The notes beneath the pieces are model-generated. The model ran no database searches. It was not told where the DNA came from and saw only the letters and a program-made list of their open reading frames with translations. Source: Alphaproteobacteria bacterium (GTDB taxonomy: Bacteria > Pseudomonadota > Alphaproteobacteria > MPNO01 > VGEU01). Taken from it: a DNA stretch of 48,750 nt. The position numbers and the translations under genes were made by a program. Within the stretch, counting starts at the first letter, position 1, and every line of letters begins with the position of its first letter. The stretch spans positions 1 to 48,750 of the forward strand of contig VGEU01000015.1 of assembly GCA_016869145.1 (NCBI GenBank), in the 5' to 3' direction. Shown here piece by piece: positions 1 to 14,398 of this stretch.

Positions 1-1224
1 GCCGCCGACCGCCCGGCCCAGGAAGCGCAGATCCCGCGCGCCCCGGATCCGATCCCGCCGGGCGTCGTCATTCCCGGTCCCGTCGCGCCGCAGCTGGTCG
101 GGCCGGGGTCGGTCGTGCCGGGCCCCGTCGCGCCGCAGCCTGTCGCACCCGGTCCAGTCGCACCGCAGCCTGTCGCGCCCGGGCCGGTCGGCCCCGGGGC
201 AACGGGACCGGTCGCGCCGCGCGCACCGACCGAGCCGGCGGCGCCGCAGCCGCAGCCGCCGTCCGATCTGCCTCAGCCGCCTGCCGACCGGGCGCGGCCG
301 GGCGAGCGCACGCGCGAGACGCCGCAGGAGGAAGCCCTCCTCGAGGCGGGCGCGATCCTGCTGCCGCCCGGGCGCATGCAGCTCGAGACCACGATCGACT
401 ACACGCACTCGTCGTCGAACCGCATCAATATCGGCGGGTTCACGATCTTCGAGGCGATCCTGATCGGGACGATCCGCGTCGACGATCTCAAGCGCGACAT
501 CCTGACCAGCTCGACCACCGCGCGGCTCGGCCTGTTCCGCCGCCTGCAGGGCGAGGTCCGCGTGCCCTATGTCTATCGCACCGACGACGAGGTGCTCGGC
601 GCCGGCACCAACGACCAGCGCATGCGCAACGTCACCGGCAACGGGCTCGGCGATGTCGACGCGACGCTCACCTACCAGCCGGTGATCGCGAGCGGCTGGT
701 GGCCCAACATCCTGACCCGCGCCCGCGTCCGCATCCCGACCGGCAAGAACCCGTTCGAGATCCCGAGCGTGACCACCGGCCAGACCGGCGAGACGCGCCT
801 CGCCGAGGCGCCGACCGGCTCGGGCTTCTACGCCTTCTCGGCCGGCGCGACCGGCGTGTGGCGGAGCGACCCGGCGGTCTTCTTCGTGAGCGGCGGGTTC
901 ACCTATACGCCGGAGCGGCGCTTCACGAACGCCGGCGCGATCGATCCGGGCGAATCCTTCGACTTCAGCGTCGGCCTCAACGTCGCCCTGAGCGACAAGG
1001 TCGCGATCAACATGGGGTTCTCGGAATCCTTCACGCTCGAGACCAAGCAGAACGGGCGCAAGAGCCCAGGCTCGGGCACGAACGACGCGCGGCTCTCGCT
1101 CGGCACCTCGATCGGCATCTCGCCGTCGTTCTCGCTCCTGGTCTCGGCGAGCATGGGGCTCACCGAGGACGCCTCGGACTTCTCGTTCCAGGTGAGCGTG
1201 CCCTACAGCTTCAACCTGTTCTGA
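1..1224 (+). CDS. Proline-rich outer-membrane beta-barrel, FapF-like candidate (5' partial)
   Basis: The frame is open from the first base, so the true start lies left of the window; 407 residues are visible. The first ~100 visible residues are a low-complexity Pro/Val/Ala/Gly linker, after which residues from LLPPGRMQLE onward alternate polar and hydrophobic positions in about a dozen short strands. The protein ends in SVPYSFNLF, a C-terminal aromatic typical of BAM-inserted barrels. The barrel resembles the phenol-MetA-degradation/transporter-type porins and could be the export pore of the amyloid locus at 2522-6264, as FapF is in pseudomonads. FapF has a coiled-coil N-terminal region, whereas this one has a polyproline linker. 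It converges with the next gene over a shared terminator. Barrel call fairly sure; FapF role inferred from context. Confidence 0.6.
   Translation, partial: AADRPAQEAQIPRAPDPIPPGVVIPGPVAPQLVGPGSVVPGPVAPQPVAPGPVAPQPVAPGPVGPGATGPVAPRAPTEPAAPQPQPPSDLPQPPADRARPGERTRETPQEEALLEAGAILLPPGRMQLETTIDYTHSSSNRINIGGFTIFEAILIGTIRVDDLKRDILTSSTTARLGLFRRLQGEVRVPYVYRTDDEVLGAGTNDQRMRNVTGNGLGDVDATLTYQPVIASGWWPNILTRARVRIPTGKNPFEIPSVTTGQTGETRLAEAPTGSGFYAFSAGATGVWRSDPAVFFVSGGFTYTPERRFTNAGAIDPGESFDFSVGLNVALSDKVAINMGFSESFTLETKQNGRKSPGSGTNDARLSLGTSIGISPSFSLLVSASMGLTEDASDFSFQVSVPYSFNLF
79..240 (+). repeat. Degenerate VAPGPVAPQP-coding repeat
   Basis: The DNA repeats blocks of the type ccgtcgcgccgcagcc about every 24-30 bases, coding for VAPGPVAPQP-like units. 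It forms an extended linker ahead of the barrel and is not a CRISPR array: units are in frame, contiguous and degenerate at third positions. Confidence 0.7.
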
Positions 1225-1249
1225 GCCGCCGCGACCGGGCCGCAAACGA

Positions 1250-1275
1250 AACGGGGCCGCAATCGCGGCCCCGTT
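1250..1275. terminator. Bidirectional intrinsic terminator
   Basis: An 11-bp perfect stem (arms 1250-1260 and 1265-1275) with loop AATC lies between the convergent barrel gene and binding-protein gene. Read on the minus strand the stem is followed by TTTCGTTTG; on the plus strand by the weaker CGCGTTTCTG. Confidence 0.75.
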
Positions 1276-1294
1276 CGCGTTTCTGACGAGCGCG

Positions 1295-2359
1295 TCAGTT
1301 GGCGCGCGCGGTCTGCAGATTGCGGACCGCGGTCTCGGCGAAGCGGTTGTCGACGAGGCCCGCGAGCTTCGGCACCGCCTTGAGGACCTGGCCGGTGATC
1401 AGGCCCCAGCCGTTATACTCGGCGTCGGCGATCTCGGCCTGGCCCCAGACGAAGCGGTCATATTTGGTCGTCTGGACCCACGCCTCGGCCTGCTGCGGCT
1501 GCACGACTACGCCCTGGCGGTGGAAGAAGATCGTCAGAAGGCGCGCGGCATCGACCGGATCCTGGCGGATATAGGTCATCGCGCGCACCCAGCCGTCGAC
1601 GAAGCGCTGCACGACCTGCGGCTCCTGCTCGATCATCGCGTTGCGCGCGACGAGGGCCTTGGCATTGATCAGGCCGAGCGTGTTCACGATGTCGCCATTG
1701 GCAATGAGCGTCCGCGCCTGGTTGGTGGCGCGCAGGAGATCGGTGAAGTGCTTCGATTCGATGACCGCATCCGCCAACTTCTTCTCGAACGCGGAAGTGA
1801 GATCGACGGGCTCGAGGAAGACGATCTTGACGTCCTGCGGGCGGAGCCGCGCGGTGTTGAGGAGCCGGATCAGGATCGGGTGCGCGTCCGAGCCGACCCC
1901 GAGCGCGACGGTCTTGCCCCTGAGATCGGCGAGCGAGTTGATGGTGGCGCCCTGTGACGGGACGACCATCTCGATCTCGGTGCCATAGCCCGCGACGGCG
2001 ATCAGCTTGGCCTCGACCTCGGCGCCGGCCATGGTCAGGAACACACGCTGCGGCACGGCGGCGATGTCGCTCGAGCCGACGCCGATCGAGCGGATCACCG
2101 TCAGCGCGTTGCTGATCGGCACGCCGCTGATCAGGAGGTTCTGCTGGGCGAAGAAGCCGCGCTCGATCCCGACGATGGCCGGCAGCGCGTCCCAGCCGCT
2201 CGCGTAGGACAGGCGCACCAGGCTCACGTTCTGGGTCTGGGCGGCGGGCTGCTGGGCCGGGGCCGCCTGCCGCTGCTGGCCGCGCTGCTGCGCCAGGGCA
2301 GGGGCGGCGACGATCGTCACCGCCGCGACGAGCACACAAGCAAGACGCCAGTTCTTCAT
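1295..2359 (-). CDS. NitT/TauT-type ABC transporter substrate-binding protein
   Basis: A 354-residue periplasmic protein with a signal peptide (residues 1-23, cleavage after PALA) and a Gln/Ala-rich linker to about residue 45. It then has the SsuA/NMT1-like fold: LSYASGWDALPAIVGIERGF, an internal SLADLRGKTVALGVGS motif and a C-terminal helical part. It would bind a small ligand for an ABC importer. No permease or ATPase gene is adjacent, so it is an orphan here; the nearest complete set is at 19578-22372. It lies between the barrel gene and the rest of the amyloid-like locus, in the same direction as the latter, 162 bases after 2522. Family call secure; ligand unknown. Confidence 0.85.
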   Translation of the reverse strand: MKNWRLACVLVAAVTIVAAPALAQQRGQQRQAAPAQQPAAQTQNVSLVRLSYASGWDALPAIVGIERGFFAQQNLLISGVPISNALTVIRSIGVGSSDIAAVPQRVFLTMAGAEVEAKLIAVAGYGTEIEMVVPSQGATINSLADLRGKTVALGVGSDAHPILIRLLNTARLRPQDVKIVFLEPVDLTSAFEKKLADAVIESKHFTDLLRATNQARTLIANGDIVNTLGLINAKALVARNAMIEQEPQVVQRFVDGWVRAMTYIRQDPVDAARLLTIFFHRQGVVVQPQQAEAWVQTTKYDRFVWGQAEIADAEYNGWGLITGQVLKAVPKLAGLVDNRFAETAVRNLQTARAN

Positions 2360-2439
2360 CGGGAAGTGCTCCTCGGATTGCGCCGACCTCGGGCGCGCCG
2401 ACTATACTTAGGGAGGCCGGCGGCCGGAATATAGGCAAA

Positions 2440-2460
2440 CTCAACGTGATTTAGGTTGAG
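2440..2460. promoter_or_regulatory. Short inverted repeat upstream of the binding-protein gene
   Basis: CTCAAC (2440-2445) and GTTGAG (2455-2460) form a 6-bp inverted repeat with a 9-base spacer in an AT-richer patch 80 bases upstream of the 2359 start. It could be an operator for 1295-2359. A weak terminator for the lipoprotein gene is the alternative. No T-run follows. Confidence 0.3.
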
Positions 2461-2521
2461 ATTGTCTGAACCGAGACCCTTGCCCATCGCGGCACGAGCT
2501 CCGTCAGGGCCGCGCCGGCCC

Positions 2522-3256
2522 CTAGAACCGGGGCACCGCGGTATTGAGGAGCGACGGCAGGCTCGGAATGCCCGAGGCATCGTTCAGGATATTGACCTGT
2601 ACGAACAGGTTGTTGTTGACGACGTTGAAGCTGCCGGGAACCTGAGCGATCTGGAAGATGCCGGTCGCGCCCTGGAAGTTGCGGATCACGGTCTGGATCT
2701 GGACGTCGCCGTTATTGCCGACGTTGACGTTGGGCGACGGGGCCGTCGTCGTGCCGCTGCCGCCCGAGTTGTTGACCGCGAGGTTGCCGGTCGCCGCGCC
2801 GTTGCGGTCGAAGGTGCCGTTGAACAGCACGCTGAACGAGATGCCGTTGAAGGCGCCGCGCTTGCCGGCGAGCACGCTCTCGTCGACCTCGGTCGCCCAG
2901 CTCGTCCTCGGCGTGAGCGAGGCGACGTCGGCGACGCCGAGGTTCTTGCGGGGCGTCGCCTTGGCGGTGGCCGCAGGCTTGGCATTCTTCGATGCGGCGG
3001 CCTGCGGCGAGGCGGATTTGGGCGAGGCGGCCTGGCGGATGCTGTCGCCCGAGCCGCAGCCATAGAGGAGCGCGCCGGGGAGGACGAGGATCGCGAGCAA
3101 GGCGGCGGCGCGACGAAGTCCGCCGAGCCATCGGGCGGCCGCTCCGGCGCGCGGGGCGGCACTGTCGGCGGGTCTACGCGCTACGCGTCTCACGGTCGTC
3201 ATCCTCTCGGTCTGGTCCCCGCCCTGCGGCGAGGGGTCGGCGGTCGGTCCCGGCAT
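2522..3256 (-). CDS. Lipoprotein of the amyloid-like locus carrying one repeat unit
   Basis: The start at 3256 is chosen because GGGGAG sits 7 bases upstream and the preceding gene stops one base earlier (TGA-C-ATG). A later ATG at 3202 has no spaced Shine-Dalgarno. The 244-residue product has an Arg-rich N-terminus, a hydrophobic stretch and a lipobox LLYGC (Cys67), followed by an Ala/Ser/Pro/Lys tether. Residues ~189-224 read RNFQGATGIFQIAQVPGSFN... and align with the repeat unit of the two amyloid-like proteins upstream, especially the third copy in 3962-4858. It could anchor or cap a fibre at the outer membrane. In Fap terms it occupies the FapE place, but I cannot show homology. The C-terminus is VPRF; the main subunit ends GNRF. 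Confidence 0.6.
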   Translation of the reverse strand: MPGPTADPSPQGGDQTERMTTVRRVARRPADSAAPRAGAAARWLGGLRRAAALLAILVLPGALLYGCGSGDSIRQAASPKSASPQAAASKNAKPAATAKATPRKNLGVADVASLTPRTSWATEVDESVLAGKRGAFNGISFSVLFNGTFDRNGAATGNLAVNNSGGSGTTTAPSPNVNVGNNGDVQIQTVIRNFQGATGIFQIAQVPGSFNVVNNNLFVQVNILNDASGIPSLPSLLNTAVPRF

Positions 3257-3257
3257 G

Positions 3258-3965
3258 TCAGAACTCCCCGGCCTGCCGACGCATGGTCGGCCCGATGCGG
3301 TCGAGGAGCGTGAAGATCTCGTCGACCGCCGCCTTGAGGGTGCGGTCCTGGGCGAACTCACCGTTGCGGTCGCGCGTGTTGCTGAGGATCATCAGCACGA
3401 TCTGGTCCCAGCCCGCGGCGAACTCGGCGACCGGGCGCGCGATGTGGCCGAACGCCGGGTCGGCGATCAGCACGTTGCCGTTCTCGACGCCCTTGATCAC
3501 CACGAAGTGGGCGTAGCCGCGGGTGTTGGTGAGCGTGATCACCGGCGCCTCGAGCCTGGTGACCTCCTCGGGCGAGTTCAGCTTGAAGCCGCTGACGACG
3601 TAGCCCTTCTCCTCGACCGCGCGCTTAATCTCGAGCATCGAGAAGCCCTGGCGCTTGATCCGCTCCTCGTCGCCGACGCGCAGCATGTCGAGGACGAGCT
3701 GCCGCTCCTCGATCGCGTCGCCGTAATAGTGGGTGAGGATGGTCGCCGCGGCGGCGGCGCCGCTCGAGACATCGAAGCCCTGGCGCACGATGTCCTTGAA
3801 CTTGAGCTGTGTGAGCCCGAGCACCGGCACCTGGACGCGGAGCGGGCTTCCCGGCATCGGCAGTGTCACCGCGCCGGCCGGTGCAACGAGACAGAGGGGC
3901 GCGACGAGACAGAGGGGCGCGACGACGGCGGCGAGGAGCGCGGCGCGGGGGCGGCGGATGCTCAT
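3258..3965 (-). CDS. C39-peptidase-like protein (FapD-like) with Cys-to-Ser at the active site
   Basis: The 235-residue exported protein has a signal peptide to about residue 32 and a C39 papain-like fold. The oxyanion Gln62 is followed at the canonical spacing by VSSGAAAAATIL, where the family has SCGAAALATLL, so the nucleophile position is Ser68 (codon AGC). His153 (GYAHFVVIKG) and Asp169 (IADPAFG) are present. C39 enzymes process or escort secreted peptides, and FapD in pseudomonad amyloid operons belongs to this family. Here it may be a non-catalytic chaperone or an atypical serine enzyme. The start overlaps the stop of the upstream repeat protein by 4 bases and the lipoprotein follows one base after its stop, so the three genes are translationally coupled. 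Confidence 0.75.
   Translation of the reverse strand: MSIRRPRAALLAAVVAPLCLVAPLCLVAPAGAVTLPMPGSPLRVQVPVLGLTQLKFKDIVRQGFDVSSGAAAAATILTHYYGDAIEERQLVLDMLRVGDEERIKRQGFSMLEIKRAVEEKGYVVSGFKLNSPEEVTRLEAPVITLTNTRGYAHFVVIKGVENGNVLIADPAFGHIARPVAEFAAGWDQIVLMILSNTRDRNGEFAQDRTLKAAVDEIFTLLDRIGPTMRRQAGEF
3887..3922 (-). repeat. Perfect 18-bp tandem duplication in a signal-peptide region
   Basis: The 18-base unit cgagacagaggggcgcga occurs twice in a row (3887-3904, 3905-3922) and codes a doubled PLCLVA in the signal peptide of the C39-like protein. The duplication is in frame and lengthens the hydrophobic core. Confidence 0.8.
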
Positions 3966-4858
3966 CGGCCGATCCCCGGCACGATGCCCGAGAACCCGGT
4001 CGAGGGCAGCGCGATGGTCGCGCGGTTGCCGACGACATTGGCATTGCCGGCCGACTGGGTGACCTGGGCGATCCCGGTGAAACCGATGAAGGAATTGGTG
4101 ATCGTGTCGGCGCGCCGGGTCTTGGTGAGATCCTCGACGCCCGACTGCTCGACGGTGCCCTGGACCGCGCCGACGCCGCTCAGGGTCTCGCTGCCGAGCT
4201 TCACGAACTCCTCCGGGTCGAGCCTGATCCCGACTCCGATGACGAGGATGTTTTGCTGCTGGTTGGCCGCGCCGGCCGACTGGTTGACGGCGACCGTGCC
4301 GGTCGATCCGCCGAAGCTGTTGTCGATCGTGTCGAGGCGCCGGCCGCCGACCGAGACGACGCTGTTGCCTTCCGCGCGCACCGTGCCGGCGAGCGCGAGA
4401 TCATCGAGCGTCGTCTCCTGCTGGAACTGCTCGGCGCCCAGATCGCGGATCACGAGCACGAGCGCGTTGAGCTGGTTGTTGGCGATGCCGACTTTCTGGT
4501 TGAAGGCGAAGACGCCGCGGCTGACCTGGAACGAGCGCTCGACCAGCGCCTCGCGCTTGAAGCCGGGATCCTCGACCGGCGGCCGTCCGGGTACCTTGAT
4601 GATCCCGGGCACCAGGCGGTCGGTGATGGTGACGTTGGTGATCGACTGCTCGAAATAGGCGCGCGCGCCGGATGGCACCGCGTCGGCGATCGCCGAGACG
4701 CCGGTGATCGAGGAGGAAAGGGGGGTGTCGGTGCCGGTCGTCGGCAAGGGCGGCAGCGTCTGCGCCGCGGCCGGCAGGGCGAACGCGGCCACGACCGCCA
4801 TGATGCCAGCGATGCGCGTCGCGACCGTCCGCCAGGGAAGTGGGCCCCACATCCTCAT
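3962..4858 (-). CDS. Exported repeat protein, FapB-like amyloid nucleator candidate
   Basis: 298 residues with a signal peptide (cleavage near residue 32, PAAA/Q). Three copies of an Asn/Gln-rich unit lie at about 104-138, 175-209 and 250-284. Each has the pattern S-F-x(3)-[ST/R]-G-[ITV]-x-x-[VF]-[NT]-Q-x-x-G-x-x-N, best seen as TVAVNQSAGAANQQQN in copy 2. Copies are separated by ~40-residue linkers. Regularly spaced N/Q ladders around conserved glycines are typical of functional amyloid subunits, and the same unit recurs in 5374-6264. Being first in the operon with the C39-like and lipoprotein genes suggests a nucleator or minor-subunit role. No cysteine is present. Repeat structure is read directly; the amyloid role is inference. 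Confidence 0.65.
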   Translation of the reverse strand: MRMWGPLPWRTVATRIAGIMAVVAAFALPAAAQTLPPLPTTGTDTPLSSSITGVSAIADAVPSGARAYFEQSITNVTITDRLVPGIIKVPGRPPVEDPGFKREALVERSFQVSRGVFAFNQKVGIANNQLNALVLVIRDLGAEQFQQETTLDDLALAGTVRAEGNSVVSVGGRRLDTIDNSFGGSTGTVAVNQSAGAANQQQNILVIGVGIRLDPEEFVKLGSETLSGVGAVQGTVEQSGVEDLTKTRRADTITNSFIGFTGIAQVTQSAGNANVVGNRATIALPSTGFSGIVPGIGR

Positions 4859-5280
4859 GATCTCTCGCCTGCCTTCATCCCGGCGTGGTCCGGGCCAAAC
4901 GCCGGTCGTCGACTATGCGAAGGCGCTGTTAACGGGGCCTGAACGCCAGCCCCGAGGAGCCTGGCGCGGGCGACCGCGCGGAGCCCGATTTCGAGCGCGC
5001 CGCGTGGGGCGGGGCGCGCCGCGTCGGTCGTCGCGCGCATCGGCGCCTGTCGTGCCCGCCGCTGCGGGGGGGCCGACCGTTCGGAGGGCACCGACCGTCC
5101 GTCCGGATGATCGGTGGCCACGCACTGTCCGCTCACCGTCCATCGCAACACCACCAACGAGACCCGTACACGCAAGGATTACATCAGTATCCGTGAACAC
5201 GAACAAATCAAGAGCGCGTTATTTCTCTGTTATCGGTAGCGCGGAGATTTGCCGCATCGTTGCGAATATATGAAAACGAA
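4859..5280. other. Gene-free upstream region of the 3-gene amyloid-like operon
   Basis: About 420 bases between the 4858 start and the terminator at 5281. The half next to the gene is very GC-rich with no convincing ORF. The distal part (about 5150-5280) is AT-rich. On the minus strand a weak -35/-10 pair, TTGATT (5206-5211) and TACTGA (5184-5189) with a 16-base spacer, could drive the operon and would give a long leader. Confidence 0.4.
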
Positions 5281-5306
5281 CAGGCGACACCTTGCGGTGC
5301 CGCCTG
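5281..5306 (-). terminator. Intrinsic terminator of the main amyloid-subunit gene
   Basis: An 11-bp stem with one mismatch (CAGGCGACACC / GGTGCCGCCTG, loop TTGC). On the minus strand it is followed by TTCGTTTTCATATATT. It lies 70 bases past the stop of 5374-6264 and separates that gene from the next operon. Confidence 0.75.
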
Positions 5307-5339
5307 CCGCTGTATCCGGGTAGCCCCGGAAGGAAGTCA

Positions 5340-5362
5340 GGAGGAGGGACGGGCCCTCCTCC
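5340..5362 (-). terminator. GC-rich hairpin just after the subunit stop codon
   Basis: A 9-bp perfect stem (5340-5348 with 5354-5362, loop of 5) lies 11 bases past the stop of the main repeat protein and has no T-run. It probably acts with the hairpin at 5281-5306, either as tandem terminator or as 3'-end protection of an abundant message. Confidence 0.5.
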
Positions 5363-5373
5363 CGTTGGTCCGG

Positions 5374-6264
5374 TTAGAACCGGTTGCCGAGCACGCCCGG
5401 GGCGGCCTGATTCGAGCCGACTGTGCCCGACCACGCGATGGTCGAGGACTGGCTGTTCAGGTTGCCCGACGTCTGGTTGACGTGGGTCATGCCCTGGTTG
5501 TTGTTGACCGCGTTGGTGACCAGCGCGGTGTGCTGCATCGTCGACGACACGACGGTGTTGCTGGCGGTGGTCTGGCCCAGCGCCGCCTCGGACAGCGCCG
5601 CGGTGCCGCCGATGCCGACCGCGAGCGAGATCGAGTTGGTCTGGTTGTTCGCCGTGCCCGAGGTCTGGTTGACCCCGGTGATGCCGGTCTGATTGTAGAC
5701 CGTATCCTGCAACGTCGTCGTCCGGCGCGAACGGAACACGACGCCGCCCGGCGCCTTGCCGTCCGTCGTCGAGGCGTTCGCCGTCGTCGTCGAGCCCGAC
5801 TCGGTGACCAGCGAGTTCACGTTGTACTGCTCGGTCTCGGCCTGCGAGTCGGCCAGCGCCGTGGCGCTGTTGGTCGAGCCGAACGACACCAGGTTACCCT
5901 GGTTGTTCATCGAGCCCATGTCCTGGTTGACGCCGACTACGCCGGAGTTGTTGTAGACGGCGTTGACCAGGTTGAGGTCGAGACGGACGCTCGTCGCGCC
6001 GGTCGAGCCGGCCGCAACGTAGCTGACGGCCGAATGGCCGACCACGGCGATCGCCGCCGCTTCCGCGGCGCCGATCGGCATGATCATCGGCGAGGCGTTG
6101 AGGAACACGGCCTTCTCACGGCCGATGTTCTCGATGACGTTCAGGGTCTTGTCGAAGGCGATCACCGCCTTGACGTCGGCATTGCCGACCTGGGCGAGCG
6201 CCGCACCGTTCAGGAGACCCAGCCCCATCACGAGGGCGGTGGTTCCAAGAAGTGCCTTCTTCAT
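5374..6264 (-). CDS. Exported repeat protein, FapC-like main amyloid subunit candidate
   Basis: 296 residues with a clean signal peptide (1-24, cleavage after AALA). Three units lie at about 98-128, 184-216 and 247-279, each containing GVNQTSGTANNQTN-like cores (copy 1 GVNQDMGSMNNQGN, copy 3 HVNQTSGNLNSQSS). Linkers between units are rich in Ser, Thr and Ala. There is no Cys, Asn and Gln are abundant in the units, and charge is low. It carries a strong ribosome site (AAGGAG 8 bases before ATG) and its own terminator, as expected for a highly made structural subunit beside the operon of accessory genes. Curlin also has Q-x-G-x2-N units, but here the spacing is Q-x2-G-x2-N and the neighbours (C39, barrel) fit Fap better. 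Fibre formation is inferred. Confidence 0.7.
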   Translation of the reverse strand: MKKALLGTTALVMGLGLLNGAALAQVGNADVKAVIAFDKTLNVIENIGREKAVFLNASPMIMPIGAAEAAAIAVVGHSAVSYVAAGSTGATSVRLDLNLVNAVYNNSGVVGVNQDMGSMNNQGNLVSFGSTNSATALADSQAETEQYNVNSLVTESGSTTTANASTTDGKAPGGVVFRSRRTTTLQDTVYNQTGITGVNQTSGTANNQTNSISLAVGIGGTAALSEAALGQTTASNTVVSSTMQHTALVTNAVNNNQGMTHVNQTSGNLNSQSSTIAWSGTVGSNQAAPGVLGNRF

Positions 6265-6293
6265 CGCATATGCTCCTTAACTTCGATCTGTGA

Positions 6294-6953
6294 CGGGTTC
6301 AGCAGAGCTGTCTGCCACAAATCGATCAGTTGCCGACCGCGCCGCCGGCCTGGAACGACGACAATCTGCGCAGCGTCTCGGAGCAGATCCGCTCGGCGCT
6401 GTTCTTCGCCCATGTCCGCGCCTCGACCGGCACCGCGACCTCGCGCGCCAACTGCCATCCGTTCCGCCATGGCCGCTGGCTGTTCATGCATAACGGGGCG
6501 ATCGGCGGCTTCGAGGACATCCGGCGCGAGATCGACCTGATGATCCCGGCCGCGCTCTACCGGCACCGGTCGGGGACGACCGACAGCGAGGCGCTGTTCC
6601 TGCTCCTCCTCGCCAACGGCCTCGAGACGGACCCGGCCGCCGCCTTCGCGACGACGATGGCGGCGATCGTCGGCACCATGGCCGCGGCCGGGATCGCGGC
6701 GCCGCTCCGGGTCACCGCGGCGGCGACTGACGGCGAGGAGATCGTCGCGCTTCGCTACGCGAGCGATCGCCAGTCGCCGACGCTCTATTACGGTCATACC
6801 GAATTCGACGGCGGCGCGCAGGGGCAGGGCGCGATCCTGGTCCTCTCCGAGCCGCTCGATTCGAACCCCGGACACTGGGTCGAGGTGCCGGACTCCCATC
6901 TCCTCGTCGCCGGCGACGGCGCGGTCGCGATCGAGCCGTTCGCGCCGGCCTGA
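6294..6953 (+). pseudogene. Class II glutamine amidotransferase lacking its N-terminus
   Basis: The readable part matches YafJ/EgtC-type class II amidotransferases from PAWNDDNL onward. It has HVRASTGTA, NCHPFRHGRWLFMHNG and TTDSEAL, i.e. the glutamine-binding Arg, the oxyanion Asn-Gly and the Asp. Members normally begin MCR..., with the nucleophile Cys at residue 2 and about 75-80 residues before PAWNDDNL. Here the frame is closed by TGA at 6291-6293 and the upstream DNA is the promoter and body of the divergent amyloid-like gene. The only possible start is a TTG at 6330 without a clear ribosome site. The Ntn nucleophile is therefore missing and the gene is probably dead. The 3' end is intact. 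Confidence 0.75.
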
Positions 6954-7049: not shown

Positions 7050-8213
7050 ATGGAAGTCTTCTCGTTTCACCTGATGCCCTATGCCTATCTCGATCTCGAC
7101 TACGGCAAGGCCCACAAATCGCCCTGGGTCACCTACCCGAACAGCAATTTCGATCCGGCGCGCGGTCACGAGCTCTACAACCGCTATCTCGACGAGCTCG
7201 AGTTCTCCGAGGCGGTCGGCTTCGACGGGCTGTGCATCAACGAGCACCACCAGAACGCCTACGGGCTGATGCCGTCGCCGGTGGTGATGGCCGCGGCGCT
7301 GGCGCGGCGGACCCGTACCGCCAAGCTCGCGATCCTCGGCAACGCGTTCAATCTCCGCGAGCACCCGCTGACGCTCGCCGAGGAGCACGCGATGCTCGAC
7401 TGCATCACCGGCGGACGCCTGATCACCGGCATGGTGCGCGGGATCGGCATGGAATATTTCAGCCTCGGCGCGAACCCGACGCTTTCGCATGAGCGCTTTC
7501 ACGAGGCGCATGACCTCGTGATCCAGGCCTGGACCCGCCCCGGCCCGTTCGCCTTCGAGGGCAAGCACTATCACTTCGAGTACGTGAACGTCTGGCCGCG
7601 GCCGTACCAGAAGCCGCACCCGCCGATCTGGATCCCCTCGCTCGGCTCGGGCGAAACCATCGCGTGGGCCTCGCACCCGAGCCGCAAATACACCTATGTT
7701 CAGACCTTCAGCCCCTACAAGGCGGTGCTCCGCTTCCTCAAGGCCTATCGCGAGGCCGCGCTCCACCACGGCTACACCGCGACGCCGCGCCAGATCGCCT
7801 GGTGCGCGCCGATCTACGTCGCCGAGACCGACGCCCGGGCCCGCGACGAGGCCGCGGTCCATGCCGAGAACTTCTTCAACCGGTTTCTCAGCTTCACCCG
7901 CGAAATGGGCATGCCGCCGGGCTACATGACGCTGCCCTCGATGAAGAACCTGATGCGGCACAAATCGAGCCTCAAGAATGATCACACGATCGATTCGCTG
8001 ATTGGGGAAGAGGTCATCCTCTGTGGTTCACCCGATACGGTAAGAAGGAAGCTGATCCAGTATCACAAGGACGTCGACTTCGGGACGCTGGTGCTGATGC
8101 CGCAATTCGGCACGCTGCCGCACGACCTCACGATGCGGAGCATCGCGCTGATCGGCCACGAGATCCTGCCGGCGCTGAAGCCGCTCGGGCTCCGGGCCGC
8201 AGCTGCCGAATGA
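7050..8213 (+). CDS. LLM-class (luciferase-like) flavin-dependent monooxygenase
   Basis: 387 residues of the bacterial-luciferase TIM-barrel family, which oxidises substrates with reduced F420 or FMN. Typical stretches are GFDGLCINEHHQNAYGLMPS near the N-terminus, TAKLAILGNAF, and GGRLITGMVRGIGMEYF. The length fits the family, and AAGGA stands 7 bases before the ATG. A free flavin reductase is often needed; an NADPH-dependent FMN reductase is encoded at 32538. The deacetylase-family gene follows 48 bases downstream on the same strand, so the two may be co-transcribed. Substrate unknown. Confidence 0.9.
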   Translation: MEVFSFHLMPYAYLDLDYGKAHKSPWVTYPNSNFDPARGHELYNRYLDELEFSEAVGFDGLCINEHHQNAYGLMPSPVVMAAALARRTRTAKLAILGNAFNLREHPLTLAEEHAMLDCITGGRLITGMVRGIGMEYFSLGANPTLSHERFHEAHDLVIQAWTRPGPFAFEGKHYHFEYVNVWPRPYQKPHPPIWIPSLGSGETIAWASHPSRKYTYVQTFSPYKAVLRFLKAYREAALHHGYTATPRQIAWCAPIYVAETDARARDEAAVHAENFFNRFLSFTREMGMPPGYMTLPSMKNLMRHKSSLKNDHTIDSLIGEEVILCGSPDTVRRKLIQYHKDVDFGTLVLMPQFGTLPHDLTMRSIALIGHEILPALKPLGLRAAAAE

Positions 8214-8261
8214 CCGCAGCGTCCTTCGACCAGCTCATGAACCTCTGACGGGAGAGCCTTA

Positions 8262-9164
8262 ATGCATTACGACTATGTGCCCATGCCACAGCGCAAGCCG
8301 TTGCGCTGGCCGAACGGGGCACGCATCGCCGTCATCCTCACCATCAACCTCGAGTTCTGGGATCTGACGATCGATTCGCCCAACACGTTCTATGCCGGCG
8401 GCCCGCAGCTCCTGCCCGACCCGCTGCCCGGCAACGTGCCGGACTGGCCGAACTATTCGTGGCGCGAATACGGCCAGCGTGTCGGCATCTGGCGCATGAT
8501 CGACCTGTTCGACAAGTTCGGGCTCCGCGCGAGCTGCACGACCAACGCCAAGACCTGCCTCGAGCGCCGGCCGATCATCGACGCGGTGAAGGAGCGGGGC
8601 TGGGAGCTCGTCGCCCACAACTATGTCCAGACCGAGCTCCTCACCAACTACACGTTCGACCCGGCGAAGGAGCGCCAGATCATCGGCGAGACGCTCAAGG
8701 TCTATGAGCGCGTGGTCGGCAAGCCGGCCAAAGGCTGGCTGTCGTCGTCGATGCGCTGCACCTCGAACACGCCGGAGATCCTGCGCGAGTACGGGCTCAT
8801 CTACCAGGCCGACTGGCTCAACGACGACCAGCCGTTCCTGGTCCATACCGATCGCGGCCCGCTGGTCTGCATCCCCTACACCAACGAGTGCAACGACTTC
8901 GCGACCTTCTTCCGCCGCGGCATGACCGCGCGGCAGTCCTTCGAGGTGTTCAAGGACCAGTTCGACGTCCTCTATCGCGAAGGCGCGAAGACCGGCATGG
9001 TGATGAACCTCGGCCTTCACCCGCATGTCGTCGGGCAGCCTTTCCGGATGCCGGCCCTCGCCGATTTCCTCGCCTATATCAAGCAGTTCGACGACGTCTG
9101 GGTGACGACGCGCGAAGAGATCGCCGACTGGTATCTCGCCAATCACAAGTCGCATATCGGCTGA
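8262..9164 (+). CDS. Polysaccharide-deacetylase (NodB-fold) family protein, atypical metal site
   Basis: 300 residues without a signal peptide, in the cytoplasmic NodB-homology branch that includes allantoinase-like PuuE proteins. The barrel starts at RIAVILTINLEFWD, where classical deacetylases have a TFDDG-type motif; here the acidic position is NLE. The His region is VAHNYVQTEL instead of HSxxH, and the arginine/proline motif is replaced by SSSMRCTSNT. It probably hydrolyses a C-N bond in a small molecule rather than trimming polysaccharide. A GGGAGAG ribosome site precedes the ATG. It is paired with the LLM monooxygenase and converges with a Rieske oxygenase gene. Confidence 0.8.
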   Translation: MHYDYVPMPQRKPLRWPNGARIAVILTINLEFWDLTIDSPNTFYAGGPQLLPDPLPGNVPDWPNYSWREYGQRVGIWRMIDLFDKFGLRASCTTNAKTCLERRPIIDAVKERGWELVAHNYVQTELLTNYTFDPAKERQIIGETLKVYERVVGKPAKGWLSSSMRCTSNTPEILREYGLIYQADWLNDDQPFLVHTDRGPLVCIPYTNECNDFATFFRRGMTARQSFEVFKDQFDVLYREGAKTGMVMNLGLHPHVVGQPFRMPALADFLAYIKQFDDVWVTTREEIADWYLANHKSHIG

Positions 9165-9166
9165 GC

Positions 9167-9189
9167 GCCGGCGGGCGCCGCCCGCCGGC
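9167..9189. terminator. GC hairpin between convergent genes
   Basis: A 10-bp perfect stem (GCCGGCGGGC, loop GCC) lies just after the deacetylase stop and 50 bases from the Rieske stop. There is no T-run on either side, so its termination strength is uncertain. Confidence 0.45.
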
Positions 9190-9241
9190 CTCGGATCGCG
9201 CGTGTCTCGTGCGGGCGCGTCTTGCGCGGCTTCGCGGGGCG

Positions 9242-10288
9242 TCAGGCGCGGCGGAGAAGCGGTGTTTCGCCGCGCGCCTCCGCGGCGAGCGCGGTCGCGA
9301 TCAGGCGCCGGAGCGCGAGGCCGGGCGCATCGACATTGATGTCGATCTGCGGCGCATTGCGGAACACGTCCATGTTCTTCTGCTGCGCGCCGATCGCCAC
9401 GACGTCCTGGCGGAACACGCGCTGGAAGTCGCGCGCGTAGATCTCGTCGACCTCGGCGCTCGCCTGCGCGAAATGGCGGGCGTGGGCGTAGAACTGGAAG
9501 CAGGACCTCTCGGTCTCGGGTGTCGCGGCGTTGACGTTGTGGAACTCGAGACCGCCGCGGCGCACACCTTCCTCCTGGCCGAGCCCGGTATCGACCATCC
9601 CGATATGGACATCGCTGAAGCACGGCACCGTCGAGGTGACGATCTGCCAGCGGTCGACATTGCCGCGGAACTTGCCGATGTCCTGGTAGAGCGGCGGGGC
9701 AGGGCGGTCGATCGTCCAGCGCGTCATGCAGACGCCGGTCTCGAAGCGCTCGGTCCGGATCGGGAACTCGAGCTGGGCGAGATTGCCGATCGTGTCGCCG
9801 TGGATATAGGACGTGTGCGAGAGGTCGAGCAGGTTGTCGTTGACGAGCTCGTAGTGGCCGGCGATCGGCAGCACCGGTCCGATGACCGGGCGCCACGCCG
9901 GATGATCCATCCACCACCAGTCGGGGACGAGCGCCGGATCGGCCTTCGCCGGCTCGCCCATCCAGATCCAGACCGCCTTCCAGCGCTCGACGACCGGATA
10001 GCTCCGGATCCGGCTTCCGGGCGGCACCGTGGTCTGCCCGGGGATCTGGATGCACTGGCCGGCGGGATCGAAGACGAGCCCGTGATAGCCGCATTGGAGG
10101 TTGTTGCCGGTTCGCCGGCCCATCGAGAGCGGCATGCTGCGATGGCAGCAGCGGTCCTCGAGCGCGGCCGGGCGGCCATCCTCGCCGCGGTAGAGGACCA
10201 CCGGCTCGTTGAGGAGCGTGCGGGCGAGGAGCCCGTCTCCGAGCTCGTGGCCCCACGCGGCGAGATACCAGGAGTTTCGTAGAAACAT
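9242..10288 (-). CDS. Rieske non-heme iron oxygenase, alpha subunit (VanA-type), copy 2
   Basis: 348 residues. The Rieske [2Fe-2S] ligands are Cys47-x-His49 and Cys66-x2-His69. The mononuclear iron site is in NDNLLDLSHTSYIH, with Asp155, His158 and His163. The length and the opening FLRNSWYLAAW are those of vanillate O-demethylase / phthalate-dioxygenase-like monomer-type oxygenases, which hydroxylate or demethylate aromatic acids. It lies 30 bases after an almost superimposable paralog, and both appear to be in the operon beginning with TRAP transporter genes at 15533. No ferredoxin-reductase partner is encoded nearby. It is the last gene of the run. Confidence 0.92.
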   Translation of the reverse strand: MFLRNSWYLAAWGHELGDGLLARTLLNEPVVLYRGEDGRPAALEDRCCHRSMPLSMGRRTGNNLQCGYHGLVFDPAGQCIQIPGQTTVPPGSRIRSYPVVERWKAVWIWMGEPAKADPALVPDWWWMDHPAWRPVIGPVLPIAGHYELVNDNLLDLSHTSYIHGDTIGNLAQLEFPIRTERFETGVCMTRWTIDRPAPPLYQDIGKFRGNVDRWQIVTSTVPCFSDVHIGMVDTGLGQEEGVRRGGLEFHNVNAATPETERSCFQFYAHARHFAQASAEVDEIYARDFQRVFRQDVVAIGAQQKNMDVFRNAPQIDINVDAPGLALRRLIATALAAEARGETPLLRRA

Positions 10289-10318
10289 CGCGGTCGGACC
10301 CCTCGTGCCGCGCGCCGC

Positions 10319-11371
10319 TCAGGCGCGACGGCGTTCGGGTCCGGCCTCTTCGGCCGTGATCAAGTCGAGGAGCGCCTTCCGCATCGCAAGACCCGGCGCA
10401 TCGACATTGATGTCGATCCACTTGAGGTCGGTCGCGCGATCCATGCGGTCCTGCTGCGCTTCCATGATGACGACGTCCTCCTGGAACACGCGCAGGAAGT
10501 CGCGCTTGTAGACCATGTCGATCTCCGCGCTCGTCAGCATGAACTGGCGCGCGTGGGCATAGAACTGATAGGTGGAGCGCGCGGTCTCGGGCGTGCCGAT
10601 CGAGAGCGCGTGGAACTCGGCGGTGTCCTTCGCGTTGTTCGGGGCGTTCTCCGGCGTCGCGCCCTGGCCGGCGTGGGCGCAGCCGATCCAGACGTCGCAA
10701 TAGGACGGCGCGGTGGCGTCGACGATCTGCCAGCGGTCCACATTGCCCTTGAACCAGAGATGCTTCGCATAGAGCGGCGGCGGCGGGCAGTCGATGATCT
10801 GGCGCGTCATGCGCGCGCCGTCCTTGATGCGCTCGGTCTTCACCGGCTGCTCGGCGACCGCCTCGTTGCCGATCGTGTCGGCGTGGACGAAGGTCGTGTG
10901 CGACAGATCGAGCAGGTTGTCGTTGATGAGCTGGTAGTTGCACTTGATGTGGAGGACCGGCCCCTTGACGACCTGCCAATCCGGGCTCGACATCCACCAC
11001 CAATTGGGGATCAGGTCGGGGTCGGCGAGCGCCGGATCACCCATCCAGATCCAGATCCACTTCCAGCGCTCGACGACGGGAAAGCTCCTGATGCGGCCGC
11101 CCGGTGGGACCGCGGTCTGGCCGGGGACCTCGACGCAGCGTCCCGACGGGTCGAAGACGAGGCCGTGATAGCCGCATTGGAGGTTGTCGCCGACCCGCTT
11201 GCCGAGCGAGAGCGGCATGCTCCGGTGACAGCACCGATCCTCGAGCGCGACCGGCTTGCCGTCGCCGGCCCGGTACAGAACGACCGGCTCGTCGAGAAAA
11301 GTGCGGGCGACGAGGCCGGCATCGAGCTCATGATCCCAGGCCGCCACATACCAAGCGTTGCGCAGGTACAT
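10319..11371 (-). CDS. Rieske non-heme iron oxygenase, alpha subunit (VanA-type), copy 1
   Basis: 350 residues from the ATG at 11371, chosen over an upstream in-frame ATG because GGAGGAGAG stands 4 bases before it and the product then starts MYLRNAW like its paralog. Ligand spacing is identical to the downstream copy: Cys47, His49, Cys66, His69 for the cluster and Asp155, His158, His163 for the iron. The two differ mainly in the C-terminal substrate-binding half. This suggests a tandem duplication followed by specialisation, or a hetero-oligomer. It lies 97 bases after the TRAP permease gene on the same strand. Confidence 0.92.
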   Translation of the reverse strand: MYLRNAWYVAAWDHELDAGLVARTFLDEPVVLYRAGDGKPVALEDRCCHRSMPLSLGKRVGDNLQCGYHGLVFDPSGRCVEVPGQTAVPPGGRIRSFPVVERWKWIWIWMGDPALADPDLIPNWWWMSSPDWQVVKGPVLHIKCNYQLINDNLLDLSHTTFVHADTIGNEAVAEQPVKTERIKDGARMTRQIIDCPPPPLYAKHLWFKGNVDRWQIVDATAPSYCDVWIGCAHAGQGATPENAPNNAKDTAEFHALSIGTPETARSTYQFYAHARQFMLTSAEIDMVYKRDFLRVFQEDVVIMEAQQDRMDRATDLKWIDINVDAPGLAMRKALLDLITAEEAGPERRRA

Positions 11372-11468
11372 CGCCCTCTCCTCCGCCAACAAGCGCTCGA
11401 TTTAATCGCTATCGACCGATCGGCGTCAAGTTTTCGCCCCGCGCGGCCCCGCCCGCGGCGGGCGGTCC

Positions 11469-12785
11469 CTACCAGAGACCGGCCCCGACCAGCGAGATCG
11501 CCGGGAACACGGCGAGGAGGATGATCCTTAAGACGTCGGCGCCGACGAAGCCGAGGACGCCGACATAGGTCTCCTGCAGCGGCACGGTTTTCGACATCGC
11601 GTTGATGACGAATATGTTGAGTCCGAATGGTGGTGTGATCATGCCCACCTCGACCGACACCAGCGCGAGGATGCCGAACCAGATCGCCACCTGCTCCTTG
11701 GTCAGCCCGAAATCGAGCGAGAACAGGATCGGGATGAACACCGGGAGCGTCAGGAGCACCATCGCGAGCGAGTCCATGACGCAGCCGAGGATGAGATAGA
11801 TCAGCAGCATCAGGAACAGGATCGCGAGCGGCGGCAGGCCGAGGCTGCCGATCCAGCCGGTGATCTCCGCCGCCATCTGGGTCAGCGCGATGAAGGCGTT
11901 GAAGATCTCGGTCCCGATCAGGATCAGATAGATGAGCGCGGTCGTCTCGGCCGTGTCGACGAGACAGGACCGGAACTCGCGCCAGCGCATGCCACCGACG
12001 GTGATCGCGAGCACGCCCACCGCGAAACAGCCGATGGCGGCGCCTTCGGTCGGCGAGAACCAGCCGTTGTAGATGCCGCCGATGACGAGCAGGAAGACGA
12101 CGACGACCAGCCAGATCTCCTTCATCGCCATGAGCCTCTGGCGGAGCCTCAAGGGCGCGATGGCCGGACCGGAATTCGGCGCGATCCGGACATAGATCGC
12201 GACCACAATCATGTACTGAACGGTGGCGATAATGCCGGGAATAAAGGCGGCCAAGAAAAGGAAGCCGATCGAGGTCTCGGTATAGATCGCGTAGATGACG
12301 AGGATGATCGAAGGCGGGATCAGGATCCCGAGCGTGCCGCCGGCGGCCAGCGTGCCGGTCGTGAGCGCCCCCGAATAGTTGTAGCGCCGCATCTCCGGCA
12401 TCGCGACCTGGGACATGGTCGCGGCGGTGGCGAGCGAGGAGCCGCAGATCGCGCCGAACGCCGCGCAGCCGCCGATGGTCGCCATGGCGAGCCCGCCGCG
12501 CCAGTGTCCGAACCAGGCGCTCGCGGCCTTGAACAGGGCACGGTTGATGCCGGCCTTGGTCGCGAGCTGGCCCATGAAGATAAAGAGCGGAATGACCGAC
12601 AGGTTGTAGTCGGCGAGCCGCGAGTATGTCGAGTTGTTGAGCGTGAACATGAGCGGCTGCCAGCCGACCATGATCGAATAGCCGAGCGCGCCCATCACGA
12701 ACATCGCGATGCCGACCGGCATGCGCGACAGGATCAGGACGATGGTCAGCGCAAAGAAGAGAAGCCCAAGCTCGAAGTTCGACAT
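11469..12785 (-). CDS. dctM: TRAP transporter large permease (DctM/YiaN type)
   Basis: 438 residues starting MSNFELGLLFFALTIVL, two bases after the stop of the small permease. It has about a dozen hydrophobic segments and family signatures: GGCAAFGAICGSSLATAATM, GTLAAGGTLGILIPPS and GMITPPFGLN near the C-terminus. It forms the sodium-driven translocation subunit for a carboxylate delivered by the periplasmic binding protein. The start at 12785 is preferred because the upstream in-frame stretch is out-of-frame coding sequence of the small permease. Confidence 0.95.
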   Translation of the reverse strand: MSNFELGLLFFALTIVLILSRMPVGIAMFVMGALGYSIMVGWQPLMFTLNNSTYSRLADYNLSVIPLFIFMGQLATKAGINRALFKAASAWFGHWRGGLAMATIGGCAAFGAICGSSLATAATMSQVAMPEMRRYNYSGALTTGTLAAGGTLGILIPPSIILVIYAIYTETSIGFLFLAAFIPGIIATVQYMIVVAIYVRIAPNSGPAIAPLRLRQRLMAMKEIWLVVVVFLLVIGGIYNGWFSPTEGAAIGCFAVGVLAITVGGMRWREFRSCLVDTAETTALIYLILIGTEIFNAFIALTQMAAEITGWIGSLGLPPLAILFLMLLIYLILGCVMDSLAMVLLTLPVFIPILFSLDFGLTKEQVAIWFGILALVSVEVGMITPPFGLNIFVINAMSKTVPLQETYVGVLGFVGADVLRIILLAVFPAISLVGAGLW

Positions 12786-12787
12786 AC

Positions 12788-13357
12788 CTAGAACTCTTCG
12801 ACCCCGGCATGAGTGCGACGATAGGCGCCGATGATGCTGGCATAGGCGGTATAGAGGCAGACCGCGCACCAGACGATCGAAAAGATCGAGGCCGCGAAAT
12901 AGCCGAACCACAGGGGGATGCGCAGGAACATCGAGTTGTCGTCGCGGGCAAACGCATTGAGCCCGCCGGCCATCAATCGCCATGCGAGCAGCAGCACGAC
13001 CACGGCGAAGATCGTGTTCATCACCGCGTCGATCACGTTGCGCCATTTCTCGGGCAGCGGCTGCGTGAAGACGTCGGCGACGATGTTCGACCCGCGAATC
13101 TGGCAGTAGGGCATGAAGGCGAAGATCGCGAACGAGCAGCCGTACTCGACGAGCTCCTGGTCACCGAGGATCGGCGCGTTGAGCGCCGTCCGCCCGATCA
13201 CGCTCGCGGTGGTGAACAGCGTGACGAAGGTGAGAGAGAGGCCGCCGAGGACGGCGAGCGCCTCGCTGATGATCTCGAGCGGACGCCGGATCGACTGCGC
13301 GGGCACACGCGACGGCGGAGCCCCTCTCGCGAGGGGCTCCTCAAGACCGTCGTTCAT
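12788..13357 (-). CDS. dctQ: TRAP transporter small permease (DctQ type)
   Basis: 189 residues with four membrane helices (roughly 32-56, 73-93, 109-133 and 147-172) and the family pattern ELVEYGCSFAIFAFMPYCQ followed by VDVFTQPLPEKW-like sequence. It pairs with the large permease, which starts two bases later, and follows the binding protein by 6 bases. Its first codons contain a strong hairpin (13317-13340). Confidence 0.92.
   Translation of the reverse strand: MNDGLEEPLARGAPPSRVPAQSIRRPLEIISEALAVLGGLSLTFVTLFTTASVIGRTALNAPILGDQELVEYGCSFAIFAFMPYCQIRGSNIVADVFTQPLPEKWRNVIDAVMNTIFAVVVLLLAWRLMAGGLNAFARDDNSMFLRIPLWFGYFAASIFSIVWCAVCLYTAYASIIGAYRRTHAGVEEF
13317..13340 (-). promoter_or_regulatory. 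Strong stem-loop at the binding-protein / permease junction
   Basis: A 10-bp perfect stem GGAGCCCCTC / GAGGGGCTCC with loop TCGC, starting about 15 bases inside the small-permease gene and 24 bases past the binding-protein stop. Such intercistronic stems in transporter operons stabilise the upstream message and lower permease expression. The hairpin codes for EEPLARGAP. Confidence 0.5.
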
Positions 13358-13363
13358 CGCGGC

Positions 13364-14398
13364 TCAGCTGCCGGCCTTGTGCTTCTGCACGAGGGCCTGC
13401 AATTCGTTGAACATCTTGCGGCCGTTGAGGCCCTTCTTGTTGACCTCCGTGATCCAGTCCTCGTAGACCGACTTCGATGTCTCGCGCCAACGGGCCTCCT
13501 CGGCCGGCGTCAGCTTGATGATCTCGTTGCCGCGACGGACCGCGTCGTCCCGGCTCGTCTTCGAATTGTCGTCCCAGCGCTTGCCGTAGACGCGGCCGAA
13601 CTCGGGTCCGATGCTCTTGTCGATCCCCGCCTTCTGCTGCGCCGTCAGGCTCTCATAGGCCTTGACGTTCATGACCATGAGCAGGGTCGAGTTGTACATC
13701 GACACTTCGGTGTGGAACTTGACGACCTCGTTGATCTTGAAGGTCACCATGATGATCCACGGCAGCATCGTGCCCTGGGTCTGGCCGCGCGACAGCGACT
13801 CGTAGACGTCGGTCAGCGGCATCTGCACCGGCGCGCCGCCGAGTGCCTCGACCGCCATCCCGATATAGCGGCCCGCAACGCGGACCTTGAGGCCCTTGAA
13901 GTCCTCCATCTTGCGGATGGGCGTCTTGGTCGTATGCACGAAGCCCGGATCGATCGCGTTGACCGAGATCAGCTTGAGCCCTTGCAGTTCGCTCTTCGCC
14001 TGGTTGGTGATCCAGTCCCACGCCACCTTGCTCATCATCTCGCCCGAGCCGCCGACGAACGGGAGCTCGATCGCCTCGAGGATGGCGAAGCGCCCGGGGT
14101 GGTAGCCGGGAAGGGTGTAGGAAATGTCGACGACGCCGTTCGTCGCCTGGTCGATGAGGTCGCGCGCCTTACCGCCGAGCGCCATGCTGTAGTAGAACTG
14201 CAGCTTCAGCGTATTGTCCGAGTGCTTCTCGACGTCGGCGGCCATCGGCTCGAAAATGAATCCCGTCTCGACCGAACGGGGCACATTCCACGTATGCACG
14301 CGGAGCGTCTTGGCGCCCTGCGCGACCGCGGGCGACGGCACCGCGAGCGCGCCGGCGGCGACGAGTGCGGTCGCGGCGACAACGGCTTTCAGCTTCAT
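13364..14398 (-). CDS. dctP: TRAP transporter substrate-binding protein (DctP family)
   Basis: 344 residues with a signal peptide to about residue 26 (SPAVA/Q). The mature part has the DctP fold: LRVHTWNVPRSVETGFIFEP, GVVDISYTLPGYHPGRF, the signature MEDFKGLKVRVAGRYIGMAVEALGGAPVQM, and the long C-terminal helix. The Arg in KVRVAGR normally pairs with a carboxylate of the ligand. It is followed at 6-base spacing by both permeases, so this is a complete TRAP system. Downstream Rieske oxygenases suggest an aromatic or related acid as ligand (inference). Confidence 0.93.
   Translation of the reverse strand: MKLKAVVAATALVAAGALAVPSPAVAQGAKTLRVHTWNVPRSVETGFIFEPMAADVEKHSDNTLKLQFYYSMALGGKARDLIDQATNGVVDISYTLPGYHPGRFAILEAIELPFVGGSGEMMSKVAWDWITNQAKSELQGLKLISVNAIDPGFVHTTKTPIRKMEDFKGLKVRVAGRYIGMAVEALGGAPVQMPLTDVYESLSRGQTQGTMLPWIIMVTFKINEVVKFHTEVSMYNSTLLMVMNVKAYESLTAQQKAGIDKSIGPEFGRVYGKRWDDNSKTSRDDAVRRGNEIIKLTPAEEARWRETSKSVYEDWITEVNKKGLNGRKMFNELQALVQKHKAGS

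Follow-up and report, generated by a model that had tools for sequence, protein, structure and literature searches.

The stretch of DNA analyzed here, referred to as the window, comprises 48,750 nucleotides and is an entire contig (VGEU01000015.1) of an alphaproteobacterial genome assembly (GCA_016869145.1). A sequence-only reading of its first 6,264 positions had proposed a rearranged, diverged locus for a Fap-type functional amyloid, with two repeat subunits, a C39-fold protein, a lipoprotein and an outer-membrane barrel and with no FapA counterpart. Homologues of FapC, FapB, FapD, FapE and FapF were identified, together with two features missed in that reading: a gene for a periplasmic substrate-binding protein (SBP) lying between fapE and fapF and the loss of the catalytic cysteine of FapD. 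The minus strand carries, in transcription order, fapC, fapB, fapD, fapE and the SBP gene, while fapF is located on the plus strand, as had been claimed, and is convergent with the others. Because the window is the whole contig, fapF lacks its 5′ end; the reading frames of all the locus genes are intact, that of fapF up to the contig edge. The features of the locus are as follows.

5374 to 6264, minus strand: fapC-like gene for the major fibre subunit; 296 amino acids (aa), signal peptide, three repeats; NCBIfam FapC, E = 3.3e-8
5875 to 5979, minus strand: FapC repeat 1, aa 96 to 130
5617 to 5724, minus strand: FapC repeat 2, aa 181 to 216
5425 to 5532, minus strand: FapC repeat 3, aa 245 to 280
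3962 to 4858, minus strand: fapB-like gene for the minor subunit; 298 aa, three repeats; NCBIfam FapB, E = 3.9e-11; aligned with Nitrospinota FapB
3258 to 3965, minus strand: fapD-like gene for a periplasmic C39 protein; 235 aa; NCBIfam FapD, E = 2.5e-38; Pfam Peptidase_C39, E = 7.9e-20
3762 to 3764, minus strand: AGC codon for Ser68 at the catalytic Cys position of FapD
2522 to 3202, minus strand: fapE-like gene; 226 aa, lipobox-like ALLYGC, one C-terminal Fap-like repeat
2849 to 2887, minus strand: degenerate double-glycine-like leader in FapE, 13.5 bits
1295 to 2359, minus strand: gene for an SsuA/NMT1-type SBP; 354 aa; NCBIfam SsuA_fam, E = 3.2e-32
1 to 1224, plus strand: fapF-like gene for an outer-membrane barrel; 407 aa or more, truncated 5′ by the contig edge; NCBIfam FapF, E = 2.1e-43

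The FapC- and FapB-like proteins each contain three copies of one N/Q repeat unit (e.g., NNSGVVGVNQDMGSMNNQGN and GSTGTVAVNQSAGAANQQQN), three being the usual number in Fap subunits, and one copy is present in FapE. Matches of the two subunits to the NCBIfam models were well beyond chance (best E values of 3e-8 and 4e-11), while their bit scores of 27 to 43 were far below the curated cut-offs of 190 to 195, in keeping with the divergence that had been proposed. Elsewhere in the same genome, a solitary gene (locus L021, contig C93, 6961 to 7758, minus strand) encodes another FapC-like protein, diverged and also with three repeats; no other fap genes were recognized on its 13.7-kb contig. The lipoprotein was identified as a FapE homologue because its gene occupies the same place and it has both the leader block and the repeat block; comparison with canonical FapE by hhalign gave an E value of 3e-9 with a mixed profile, and the NCBIfam FapE model did not match the window FapE. 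A structural model of FapF had a mean predicted local distance difference test (pLDDT) score of 79.7, mostly over 90 within the barrel, and contained a predicted plug-like helix at aa 108 to 115. The best PDB matches of this model were all FapF, with crystal FapF (5o65) at a template modeling score of 0.85 by target length and the related COG4313 channel ranking next. The 5o65 structure was also matched, at 1.5e-93, by a profile built from the window FapF and its relatives. These results indicated that the locus is almost certainly of Fap type. Assignment to the Acinetobacter Fil system ('putative pilus') is very improbable: matches to the models of FilB and FilC were obtained (5e-29 and 1.2e-14), but the FapD and FapF models score better (E values listed above), the subunits match FapB and FapC, and FapF heads the structural matches.

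In the FapD-like protein, Ser68 occupies the position of the nucleophile, at which Cys is present in 99 of 100 aligned homologues. The triad His and Asp are kept in all 100, that of the window included. Exactly one Cys was found in the catalytic domain of 92 of the 94 homologues for which these residues were counted, and the one protein with none was that of the window, in which the cysteines are confined to the signal peptide and the mature protein has no Cys. Searches detected no second FapD-like protein in the window genome and, among plasmids, no place covering 80% of the FapD query. A short tandem duplication (VAPLCLVAPLCLVAP) is present within the fapD signal-peptide region (3886 to 3921). 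With its only catalytic-domain Cys lost but the fold and the triad His and Asp retained, the FapD of this genome is, on balance, expected to be non-proteolytic, serving instead as a receptor or chaperone. In a Pseudomonas operon, a C38A change in FapD abolishes FapC secretion (PMC5557850); hence, the window would provide a natural test of whether the FapD fold alone can serve. The substrate of FapD is described as unknown or unclear in two papers (PMC6173800, PMC5557850). The Ser68 codon could also be a sequencing or assembly error in the gene of an ordinary cysteine peptidase, as a single base separates AGC from TGC and the genome, in 247 contigs and from a sparsely sampled order, has no close relative in the samples. 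The leader of the presumed substrate, FapE, is also unusual, however, and an error seems quite improbable.

At fapD loci, the flanking fapE gene, and often fapB too, bears a double-glycine-like leader, LSDEELxxLRGG. An N-terminal pattern (a hydrophobic residue, two or three residues, an E-like residue followed by L, M or I, three residues and then R, H or N, G, and G, K, R or A) was present in genes directly downstream of fapD at 58 of 90 loci, in those directly upstream at 27 of 93 and in 20 of the 871 other genes of those loci. The pattern was devised after viewing the same loci, and the Fisher values, therefore, overstate the surprise, although the contrast is still large. The motif recurs in FapE, at the N terminus of small FapB proteins, including those of a second Fap-like clade described below (clade II), and in some FapF proteins; the Pseudomonas FapE leader is ELKDQELASLRGRY, without GG. 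Double-glycine leaders of C39 substrates have the form LSxxELxxIxGG, which the FapE/FapB motif resembles. None of six proteins from these loci was matched by the NCBIfam bacteriocin-leader models, and the case for a double-glycine likeness is, therefore, made by the motif together with its enrichment. The LSDEELxxLRGG leader is a candidate FapD cleavage site, and its presence in FapE and clade-II FapB gives a precise predicted position for this cleavage.

The window FapE leader, VDESVLAGKRGAF, scored 13.5 bits; the median among 47 further FapE leaders was 31, and one of these scored lower than the window. The ranking is biased because the 47 were picked by the pattern. The window would, hence, represent a natural mutant in which the enzyme FapD and the presumed FapE site are both altered. 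The idea that Ser68 might go together with a lipid anchor on FapE was abandoned, as a lipobox-like signal was present in 6 of 65 FapE-like proteins and the window did not stand out in this respect. Both alterations might instead be signs of decay, the Cys-to-Ser change having knocked out FapD in a laterally acquired module whose fibres are no longer secreted. Such decay would be in keeping with the window having the sole FapD of 100 homologues without Cys, with the degenerate FapE leader, with nearest kin in another phylum and with a truncated amidotransferase gene at the locus edge, suggestive of insertion. Every gene is open, however (fapF as far as the contig reaches), the substitution is conservative with the triad His and Asp kept, and the base composition fits the host, so that decay is considered unlikely. 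A working Fap-type fibre system whose FapD acts without proteolysis is the most likely interpretation.

The SBP gene is tail-to-tail with fapF, at a distance of 70 bp from the fapF end. The same tail-to-tail arrangement was found in two Nitrospinota genomes, designated G407 (loci L074 and L157) and G410 (locus L163), whose SBPs are 46 to 47% identical to that of the window. Among 18 Nitrospinota genomes, FapF was detected in these two, and an SBP orthologue in the same two only; other SBPs in the Nitrospinota genomes are only 23 to 27% identical to the window SBP. No orthologue at E ≤ 1e-40 was found beyond the window in samples of 372 alphaproteobacterial and 378 Pseudomonadota genomes, with five candidates scored per genome, and an SBP of this kind was absent from the clade-II loci examined. 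The SBP could lie beside fap by chance and serve ordinary sulfonate or other uptake, given its SsuA/NMT1-like family and the presence of another NMT1-type protein at 40800 to 41792. This explanation is improbable in view of the recurrence of the orthologue beside fapF in precisely the two Nitrospinota genomes with FapF and its absence from the larger samples; furthermore, no ABC (ATP-binding cassette) permease or ATPase was recognized by eye alongside the SBP gene in the three loci, a profile search for them not having been made.

The conserved linkage indicated that the SBP very probably belongs to the Fap module; an action as a chaperone or sensor is put forward more tentatively. No match to FapA was found in the window genome, in agreement with the sequence-only reading, or in G407 and G410, while weak FapA matches were present at the canonical loci of two other alphaproteobacterial genomes (G170 and G268). 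With the SBP present and FapA not found in the three genomes, it is a reasonable, if unproved, suggestion that the SBP has taken the place of FapA. FapA is dispensable to Fap systems, being absent in 6 of 16 genera (PMC3792158). The linked SBP can be regarded as a candidate for a new component of Fap systems, and it points to a possible tie between amyloid export and a small molecule.

The window paired with Nitrospinota L074 (99/96) in a tree of 100 FapD sequences, outside both the canonical and the clade-II groups, and in the FapF tree the window grouped with both Nitrospinota loci (L074 and L163) at 99. The window FapF is 45 to 46% identical to that of the two loci, and the window FapC is 34 to 36% identical to two Nitrospinota FapC proteins. 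The gene order C-B-D-E and the 4-bp overlap between fapB and fapD seen in the window recur in G410; G407 has B-D-E with a 4-bp overlap, its contig ending before fapC. The fapF gene is convergent in G410 as well, and likewise at many of the clade-II loci. The description of the locus as rearranged should, hence, be qualified, as this order and orientation recur among its relatives.

Complete Fap systems were described in 2013 as confined to beta-, gamma- and deltaproteobacteria (PMC3792158); a later survey reports 25 additional genera and fapD-fapF pairs in five further phyla (PMC6173800). An alphaproteobacterial host was supported for the window, but the novelty attached to this class is smaller than had been supposed, as canonical fap operons were detected in three other sampled alphaproteobacterial genomes (G148, G170 and G268). 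Among 385 genomes of the class, FapF-like barrels were present in 27 and FapB-model matches in 4. Of 21 other FapF-like loci inspected in the class, 19 have a C39 gene adjoining the barrel gene, and the window repeat proteins matched Fap families rather than an unrelated one, so that the proposed identity stood. Most of the stronger remaining FapF-like loci of the class fall in clade II, a broad grouping of 67 FapD rows (including L058, L061, L062, L064, L066, L076, L086 and L116) that we defined from the trees and that spans alpha-, beta-, gamma- and deltaproteobacteria. The class was taken to be Alphaproteobacteria because, in the FapD tree, its loci cluster with those of named Sphingomonas, Novosphingobium, Phenylobacterium, Magnetospirillum and Rhodovibrio; Caulobacter was used as a control genome only. 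The locus also extends the Fap-type range to Nitrospinota and to a distinct alphaproteobacterial case.

Two other C39-barrel loci were noted. The Nitrospinota contig G407:C75 carries a second, different locus of this kind (L156, 4025 to 9536), near which are small exported proteins with leaders such as LSDEELGAVTGG and LSDQELDTIYGA. Pseudomonas aeruginosa PA7 and its kin have a distinct pair of a C39 protein and a FapF-like barrel (L102, 5929 to 10568), placed apart from fap in the FapD tree and followed by an outer-membrane-transport-like protein.

Two further features were mapped within and beside the locus.

5279 to 5308, minus strand: terminator-like hairpin with a T-rich tail, 3′ of fapC
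6330 to 6953, plus strand: remnant of a class-II glutamine amidotransferase gene without the N-terminal part; the Pfam match starts at profile position 68

The hairpin may insulate fapC from fapBDE, the number of such sites not being above that in shuffled sequences. Sigma-54 promoter candidates were no more numerous than in shuffled sequences, and none lay within the fap locus; a sigma-70 scan found no promoter. The amidotransferase remnant adjoins fapC, with an in-frame stop just upstream, and no N-terminal fragment was found elsewhere in the genome; it is a possible insertion scar and the probable edge of a fap island. Tetranucleotide make-up of positions 1 to 6300 matched the rest of the contig at 0.795 (0.77 to 0.86 for other contig slices) and the Nitrospinota loci at lower values (0.54 and 0.24), and contamination was rejected because the composition fits the contig. 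The remnant, the composition and the trees together suggest an old lateral acquisition of the fap locus, of unknown direction. Positions 7050 to 14398 encode a luciferase-like monooxygenase, two adjacent Rieske/VanA-type oxygenases and a DctP binding protein, suggesting a catabolic region beside the fap locus.

Taken as a whole, the data are best explained by a divergent, working Fap-type amyloid secretion locus with an SBP partner and a non-proteolytic FapD, and this explanation is regarded as likely. In such a system, FapC (major) and FapB (minor) would be exported by Sec, held unfolded in the periplasm and threaded through the FapF barrel, with the repeats stacking into a surface fibre; FapE would start or anchor the process. 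In this lineage, which would lack FapA, the SBP would be a constant partner in the module, probably on the FapF side, where it would either act as a chaperone or gate export by sensing a ligand. FapD without Cys would bind or chaperone substrates without cleaving them, much as C39-like domains do in some type 1 transporters, and FapE, with its degenerate presumed cleavage motif, would not be processed.

Several points weigh against this explanation. None of the locus proteins reaches the curated NCBIfam equivalog cut-offs (27 to 149 bits versus 190 to 700), and the hhalign match of FapE was moderate with a lineage-only profile (E = 2.7e-4, probability 42%). Confidence in the FapC structure model is very low (mean pLDDT, 33.9); a strand pattern recurs in it at all three repeats, but nothing was built on this model. 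FapD proteolysis is essential in the one Fap system tested, and a Ser-containing FapD may mean a dead or dying system, while Ser68 might be a base error in this single assembly. Evidence for the SBP linkage comes from three loci, and the larger SBP surveys scored only five candidates per genome. A bolder proposal, and a rather doubtful one, is that of a third Fap lineage, laterally spread across phyla, in which the SBP replaces FapA as a chaperone or ties export to a small ligand and of which one member has a pseudo-peptidase FapD and an unprocessed FapE.

The Fap-type machinery is already known; the points of interest here are the SBP partner, the FapD without Cys and the leader motif. Like fapABCDEF of Pseudomonas, which serves to make amyloid fibres for biofilms, the window encodes two repeat subunits, a periplasmic C39 protein, FapE and a FapF-type barrel, but it differs in the lack of a FapA match, the order C-B-D-E, the convergent fapF, the extra SBP, the FapD without catalytic Cys and the unmet curated cut-offs. 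The Nitrospinota loci resemble the window in their subunits, fapB/fapD overlap, SBP gene tail-to-tail with fapF and lack of a FapA match, and their FapE shares GVFQxxQVPGxxNxVxNNLFIQ with that of the window; in contrast, their FapD retains Cys, and their FapE retains the leader motif and has no lipobox. G410 differs further in having two fapC genes and a sigma-54-type regulator (identified by eye), and G407 in having fapF on the fapE strand. The Acinetobacter Fil system (FilB, a C39 protein; FilC, a barrel) shares the C39-barrel combination, but the window matches it less well than it does Fap. Clade-II loci also combine a C39 protein, a FapF-like barrel and a FapE with an LRGG leader, often with a convergent fapF, while in those read FapB is small with a single repeat and FapC is long or has a different repeat pattern.

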